From Deltaproteobacteria bacterium (GTDB taxonomy: Bacteria; Desulfobacterota; Desulfarculia; Adiutricales; Adiutricaceae): DNA of 46,369 nucleotides. Below, piece by piece: positions 45,266 through 45,620 of the stretch. The notes beneath the pieces are model-generated. The model worked only from the letters and a program-made list of their open reading frames with translations, was not told where the DNA came from and searched no databases. The number at the start of each line of letters is the position of its first letter. Position 1 is the stretch's first letter. Location of the stretch: positions 1 through 46,369 of the forward strand of contig JAISEL010000040.1 in the NCBI GenBank assembly GCA_031264185.1, in the 5' to 3' direction. The position numbers and the translations under genes are program-made.

Positions 45266-45620
45266 CTAAGGAGGTATATTGTAAGCGGTATCAGGTCTTA
45301 GTTGTCCACATTCTGAATTATTTGCACTAACCTGACATGAAGAGGCAACTTTGTTGGAACTTTGATACTTCAAAAATTTTCTTGGTATTTCATCAGACAG
45401 TTCTGTCCTATAACCCACTAAATCCGTTTCCTGTCCCCAGGCAATGTTAGGAACTCCATAATTTAATATATATGAATTTACCGAGTAATTAGAGAGTATT
45501 AAAAGTGTAATTGAGAGAGAGAGAGAGAGAGAGAGAGAGAGAGAGAGAGAGCAATAACCATGCCAACATCATTTGGTCAAAATCCAGGTGCCTCTTGGCG
45601 CGGTTATTAATAAAAGACAT
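45266..45620 (-). pseudogene. Small reading frame interrupted by a CT-dinucleotide tract: candidate phase-variable gene, OFF state
   Basis: From ATG 45620 (or 45572/45569) the frame reads FINNRAKRHLDFDQMMLAWLLL, enters the CT tract as alternating Leu-Ser, and stops soon after at a TAA (45491-45489). Behind the tract a second frame, offset by one base, is open for about 80 codons to TAG 45266: ITLLILSNYSVNSYILNYGV, NIAWGQETDLVGYRTELSDE, then two Cys and the end AYNIPP. Adding one CT unit (41 bases) would join them into a protein of about 119 residues with a long Leu/Ser hydrophobic segment, i.e. a membrane anchor or signal-like start. No family is recognised. Its status as a gene is inferred from the arrangement. 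Confidence 0.5.
45513..45551. repeat. GA/CT dinucleotide microsatellite, 39 bases
   Basis: Nineteen and a half uninterrupted GA units on the plus strand. Such long perfect dinucleotide tracts are rare in bacteria outside phase-variable loci. It lies within the split reading frame on the minus strand and about 1 kb upstream of the first intact gene of the uptake operon. Confidence 0.97.

Follow-up and report, generated by a model that had tools for sequence, protein, structure and literature searches.

In trp-type ribosome-mediated attenuation, the formation of a terminator depends on how a leader is translated. For Streptococcus gallolyticus, Danne and colleagues demonstrated slippage-controlled attenuation at pil1 by experiment and described it at pil3, in both cases with GCAGA repeats (PMC3894217). 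In these leaders, a promoter and an SD sequence with an ATG precede a simple repeat in the leader ORF, the repeat number changes the frame, and a premature stem-loop terminator upstream of a surface operon is reached by the longer frame only (PMC3894217). In Helicobacter pylori genes of the oipA type, slippage in a CT tract shifts the frame near the 5′ end and affects outer-membrane functions; the tract is located in the 5′ coding region of the outer-membrane gene itself (PMC10564699). Within the open-access literature, outside of which most subscription journals lie, PMC3894217 was the only example found for the combination of leader, repeat and attenuator.

The window, i.e., the whole stretch of 46,369 nt which was analyzed here, contains a CT tract upstream of a Fec/TonB siderophore-uptake operon. 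This tract is interpreted as the probable switch of a phase-variable transcription attenuator, captured in the OFF state, which would control the operon. For this reading, a probability of roughly 0.7 is assumed.

CT Tract and Leader Frames

The following leader features were identified, all of them on the minus strand:

45736..45763, minus strand: sigma70-type promoter TTGACA-N16-TAAAAT, 11 of 12 consensus positions
45618..45631, minus strand: ribosome-binding core GGA (45631-45629) and leader ATG (45620-45618)
45552..45566, minus strand: conserved box TTGGCATGGTTATTG abutting the tract, reads LAWLL; with the first tract C added, it also matches the sigma54 -24/-12 consensus
45513..45551, minus strand: (CT)19C microsatellite of 39 perfect bases, candidate switch
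45489..45620, minus strand: leader ORF as read with the present tract length (OFF), MSFINNRAKRHLDFDQMMLAWLL(LS)nNYTFNTL-stop
45266..45511, minus strand: 81-codon open frame ending with Pro-Pro-stop (stop 45268-45266)
44549..45265, minus strand: remaining leader of about 720 nt, no gene recognised, no strong intrinsic terminator

No other long run of a dinucleotide occurs in the window. The frame of the ATG at 45620 crosses the tract, continues for 7 codons and ends at the stop 45491-45489. When the tract length was stepped by 2, only lengths of 29, 35, 41, and 47 nt joined the ATG to the 81-codon frame, whereas 37, 39, and 43 nt left both unjoined. A preliminary description of this DNA had reported a perfect 39-base tract whose frame stops at 45491-45489 and which 41 or 35 bases would join to the downstream frame. 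Tract and arithmetic were reproduced exactly, and the state named OFF there is the one present, since 39 nt are out of register with the 81-codon frame.

That the repeat number sets a short or a long leader frame was observed across the sister loci as well as in the window. Leader starts were chosen heuristically; on this basis, 20 of 80 loci have a long register, close to one third, and 60 do not. Tract lengths differ between paralogues whose flanks are more than 90% identical (e.g., 45/55, 46/56, 42/62, and 26/70). Tracts are located at most 200 nt from a contig end in 8 of 42 and in 9 of 22 cases, with about 0.5 expected in each, as expected for lengths varying in the population but also for repeats that sequence badly. 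The loci L093 (G000 C30) and L115 (G000 C155) have different upstream parts followed by identical 81 nt after the tract, as would result from an exchange of promoters at this point or from a branch in the assembly graph.

Promoter, Start Codon and Conserved Box

Strong sigma70 promoters with the pattern TTTTTCTTGACA-N16/17-TATAAT recur in many sister loci, some 140-250 nt ahead of the tract. The sigma70 promoter is located upstream of the leader ATG, and therefore the leader start codon is expected to be transcribed. In the genus, ATG is enriched at position -69 from the tract (29 of 84 tracts). Thirty non-redundant loci have an in-frame start at -66, -69 or -72, and 28 of these leaders are open to the tract, with 7 expected. 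An SD core (GGA, GAG or AGG) was found ahead of 31 of 42 starts, compared to 28% of the control windows. The design, which nearly all of the 42 tracts in this genome have in common and which relatives share, consists of a sigma70 promoter, an SD sequence with an ATG, about 23 codons, (CT)n and one frame open for about 70 codons; the simple repeat lies within a leader ORF having its own promoter, ribosome-binding site and start, as in pil1.

The 15 nt preceding the tract follow the consensus TTGGCA[CT][GA][A/G]TT[A/C]TTG in the 84 tracts of the genus. The 16-nt sequence TTGGCAYRNTTNTTGC (45566-45551 in the window, about 80 sister loci) overlaps the tract start and matches a sigma54 promoter, with GG-N10-GC and consensus flanks, and rpoN is present in the genome. 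Since nearly all tracts follow TTGGCAYRATTNTTG, the tract was first viewed as the initially transcribed region of a sigma54 promoter. Here, the first C of the tract would complete the -12 element, and the repeat length would alter the initially transcribed region and hence the promoter strength. In line with this, a CT tract was found at 24 of the 27 exact TTGGCAYRNTTNTTGC sites of the genome (control 0), and the core is invariant over 84 loci in different reading frames; the fit to the sigma54 consensus holds at nucleotide level in more than one frame. The 16-mer also occurs without CT upstream of an Hsp20-like and a sigma-factor-like gene (identities assigned by eye) of a termite Treponema.

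The sigma54 promoter was demoted to a rather improbable alternative, because good sigma70 promoters are located further upstream and because the openness of a single frame requires translation from upstream of the tract. Furthermore, the sequence of the box is not constant among relatives (G011 has TTTTTAGCCCGATTCTTG), with Leu-Ala-x-x-Leu being kept in the farther ones, and the tracts of G015 lack the box but still follow an in-frame ATG. A shared palindromic enhancer site was searched for and not found; the only dyads clearly exceeding the shuffles were A/T runs. The nucleotide conservation of the box lies outside the attenuator model and is not explained by it; the box might represent a second promoter, or it might have been left behind when loci exchanged sequence. 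Rfam gave no match in the window.

Open Frame Downstream of the Tract

The sorted stop-free lengths past the tract have means of 68.8, 14.4, and 2.3 codons, compared to 29.3, 11.5, and 3.5 in shuffles which keep the local composition; the antisense control was normal. In all five window paralogues (window, L090, L094, L108, and L118) the long frame is open and ends with a common Pro-Pro-stop, with indels of 9 and 18 nt among them. Paralogue indels are mostly multiples of 3 inside the long frame but often not beyond its stop. In the pair L182/L183 and in L107, the frame is only partly kept.

Paralogue substitutions are distributed evenly over the three codon positions, both downstream (197/212/208) and upstream of the tract (49/59/53). 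Since the frame is kept while substitutions are even, the avoidance of stops and of out-of-frame indels suggests selection for translation with little or none for the peptide. For the five window paralogues, dN/dS-type estimates are mostly 0.4-0.85, which leaves room for weak protein constraint.

The long frame was first read as a protein, which was dropped once the codon-position tests came out flat. In this form the locus would be a translational contingency gene of the H. pylori oipA type, in which the tract joins a signal or membrane segment to a real protein of about 125 residues that is itself switched. The SD sequence with ATG, the hydrophobic Leu-Ser stretch and the open frame and stop conserved in five paralogues would fit such a gene. 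It is considered unlikely, as many paralogue pairs substitute evenly over codon positions, the 81 downstream residues match no Pfam or NCBIfam family, and sister loci hold terminators inside the frame. In addition, most loci share the architecture though their long frames are unrelated in sequence, and a conserved switched protein product as in oipA was not found.

From the phase-variable gene proposed in the preliminary description, the reading as a contingency locus driven by CT slippage is retained and extended by dozens of sister loci of the same design, while the reading of the joined frame as a surface gene is not. The joined peptide is probably not a surface protein, and its Leu-Ser stretch finds no support as a signal region, since the uptake genes have start codons of their own and substitutions are even over codon positions. 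More likely, the long frame is a leader whose translation would control the operon behind it.

Terminators in the Leaders

Intrinsic terminator-like hairpins were found within 300 nt past the tract in 39 of 94 leaders, compared to 7-13 in dinucleotide shuffles, 9 in the antisense control and 8 of 62 in the upstream stretch. A finer scan comprised 50 hairpin-containing leaders. In 44 of these, the long frame extends to the hairpin, and in 40 it passes the T run, with a mean of 14.8 and a maximum of 24 for this relation in 300 shuffles; both other frames end ahead of the hairpin in 38. For the set of loci, a premature terminator is thus reachable by the long frame only, as in pil1. Very strong hairpins also occur, e.g., with -31 kcal/mol in G419. 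The thresholds for hairpins and the choice of start codons are our own. Since duplication has made the loci related to each other, terminators and starts were tested on non-redundant subsets, and some other tests were performed on full sets.

The leader of the window has weak hairpins only, none better than in shuffles (z 0.1), and its long frame stops about 720 nt short of the first gene. When the five leaders of the window family were folded to a consensus, a convincing terminator did not emerge, and the covariation term was unfavourable. For leaders without hairpins, the (UC)n RNA was considered as a candidate Rho site, and it is our guess that Rho ends transcription in the leader of the window.

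The long leader frame ends with Pro at 16 of 78 loci (4.7% background), including 8 with Pro-Pro. Possibly, slow termination at these codons holds the ribosome near the terminator.

Genes Downstream of the Tracts

The following genes were assigned to the operon behind the tract of the window:

43430..44548, minus strand: periplasmic binding protein (PF01497), first gene of the operon
42326..43433, minus strand: second binding-protein-like gene, in three frames and likely broken (ORFs)
41189..42304, minus strand: FecCD-like permease (ORF), resembles the neighbouring permease
40114..41196, minus strand: FecCD permease (PF01032, E 3e-72)
39332..40255, minus strand: ABC transporter ATPase of the FecE type (ORF with Walker A motif), start codon uncertain
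36900..39266, minus strand: TonB-dependent siderophore receptor (PF00593/PF07715; TIGR01783 just over cut-off)

The operon agrees with the outer-membrane uptake operon which had been noted next to the tract in a symbiont-type genome. The tract lies outside the coding sequence of the outer-membrane protein, as the first gene starts at 44548 and the receptor at 39266. The split binding-protein gene has a 364-aa counterpart in L096 and longer counterparts in sister operons.

Behind 27 tracts of this genome, the first genes include 11 with a TonB plug domain. Further first genes encode two secretion pores of the ShlB/TpsB type, FecCD permeases, binding proteins, an autotransporter, a DNA methylase and an acyltransferase. 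In related genomes, TonB receptors, autotransporters, a TPS protein, restriction-modification enzymes, a glycosyltransferase and pilin-like proteins were found behind the tracts. Among the 31 TonB receptor genes that were placed in this genome, 18 follow a tract of their own strand at a distance of at most 7.5 kb, with 1.1 expected and 2 in the reverse-order control. Receptors, adhesins, methylases and glycan enzymes are the classic repertoire of phase-variable genes. Tandem pairs of leader-tract units, about 120-300 nt apart, were found before one operon in L104, L116, L091, L178, and L194.

Distribution Across Genomes

This genome (4.4 Mb, 166 contigs) contains 40 separate tracts of at least 18 nt starting with GCTCT, plus two others, and 562 CT words of 24 nt (overlapping counts), far more than chance would give. 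CT tracts occur in 18 of 31 relatives, almost all within the family of the window, and none were found in its sister families within the order. Box and tract are present in each of the seven genomes that form the genus, and tracts occur in most of the family's genera. Across the phylum (395 genomes), box plus tract was restricted to the family of the window and two genomes of one other family; viral contigs showed no such combination. In this other family, L247, L248, and L249 (G293, G386) have a short leader M[ST]D[HR][LF]MAH[FI]L(LS)n with a strong SD sequence, and represent a leader-tract module outside the family of the window.

Named matches are metagenome bins labelled Deltaproteobacteria, Treponema and Spirochaetaceae, which from their isolate codes we take to be of termite-gut origin. 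In bins of Treponema and Spirochaetaceae, L251, L253, L254, L255, and L256 have the same box and tract before exported-looking proteins, and L253 and L256 contain strong terminators within the long frame.

The tracts could also be neutral microsatellites or assembly artefacts which spread with a duplicated promoter cassette. In favour of this are the clear duplication of the upstream cassettes, the fragmented state of the genome and the fact that the named relatives are metagenome-assembled genomes. Against this stand the tracts in all seven genus members and most genera of the family, the strict relations of position, frame and terminator, and the strong association with surface genes. An assembly artefact or contamination, which had been named as a possible objection, is unlikely because G419, with a 4.48-Mb contig and smaller replicons, has nine tracts. 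Taken as a whole, this explanation is highly improbable. In G419, which is a near-complete relative, seven of the nine tracts (L229-L233, C2 and C3) are located on replicons of 65 kb and 134 kb, off the 4.48-Mb contig.

Proposed Mechanism

The promoter, the start codon, the tract, the open frame, the frame arithmetic, the terminators of the sister loci and the downstream genes can be read directly from the DNA. For the attenuator, we infer slippage in the population, read-through of transcription and translation as the effector. The sigma70 promoter would produce a leader RNA with an ORF translated through (CT)n, and slippage by two bases would change the frame in which the ribosome exits the tract. 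In one register, about 70-80 more codons would be translated over the termination signal, so that RNA polymerase continues into the operon (ON). In the other two registers, the ribosome would stop within a few codons and the terminator would end transcription (OFF). At many sister loci this terminator would be an intrinsic hairpin, and in the window perhaps Rho acts instead.

A wider reading, for which we see about even odds, extends this to dinucleotide attenuators throughout the genome. About 40 surface, uptake, glycan and DNA-methylation operons would be switched independently, each by a leader ORF selected only for translation, with a sigma54-type element in the coding sequence by the tract, and the module would also be present in termite-gut spirochaetes. 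If true, this would constitute a general switchboard in an uncultured insect-gut lineage, by which receptors, adhesins and DNA methylases could be set on or off independently at about 40 loci. Phages, protist or insect hosts and competitors would then meet a surface that is drawn by lot in each cell. The signature of a start, a tract and one long frame over a terminator is simple to search for, and can be used in other genomes and in existing read sets.

Comparison With Known Systems

Like trp-type attenuators, the CT system would let the translation of a leader set the outcome at a terminator. Unlike there, the decision would be a heritable frame set by DNA slippage, and no regulatory codons were seen. 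With the oipA type it would share CT slippage that shifts a frame near a 5′ end and the connection to outer-membrane functions (PMC10564699), but the tract is located in a separate leader here and the uptake genes have their own starts.

The arrangement described above for pil1 and pil3, from the promoter to the downstream surface operon, is the closest likeness. These two are pilus loci of a Gram-positive species with a GCAGA pentamer and proof by mutants (PMC3894217), whereas the putative CT system uses a dinucleotide, comprises about 40 loci in one genome, occurs in termite-gut bacteria labelled Deltaproteobacteria and precedes many kinds of genes. Further differences from pil1 and pil3 are the conserved box that precedes the tract and the Pro with which the leader frames often end. 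In the best reading, the CT system of this different phylum works like pil1, but uses a dinucleotide and extends over the whole genome.
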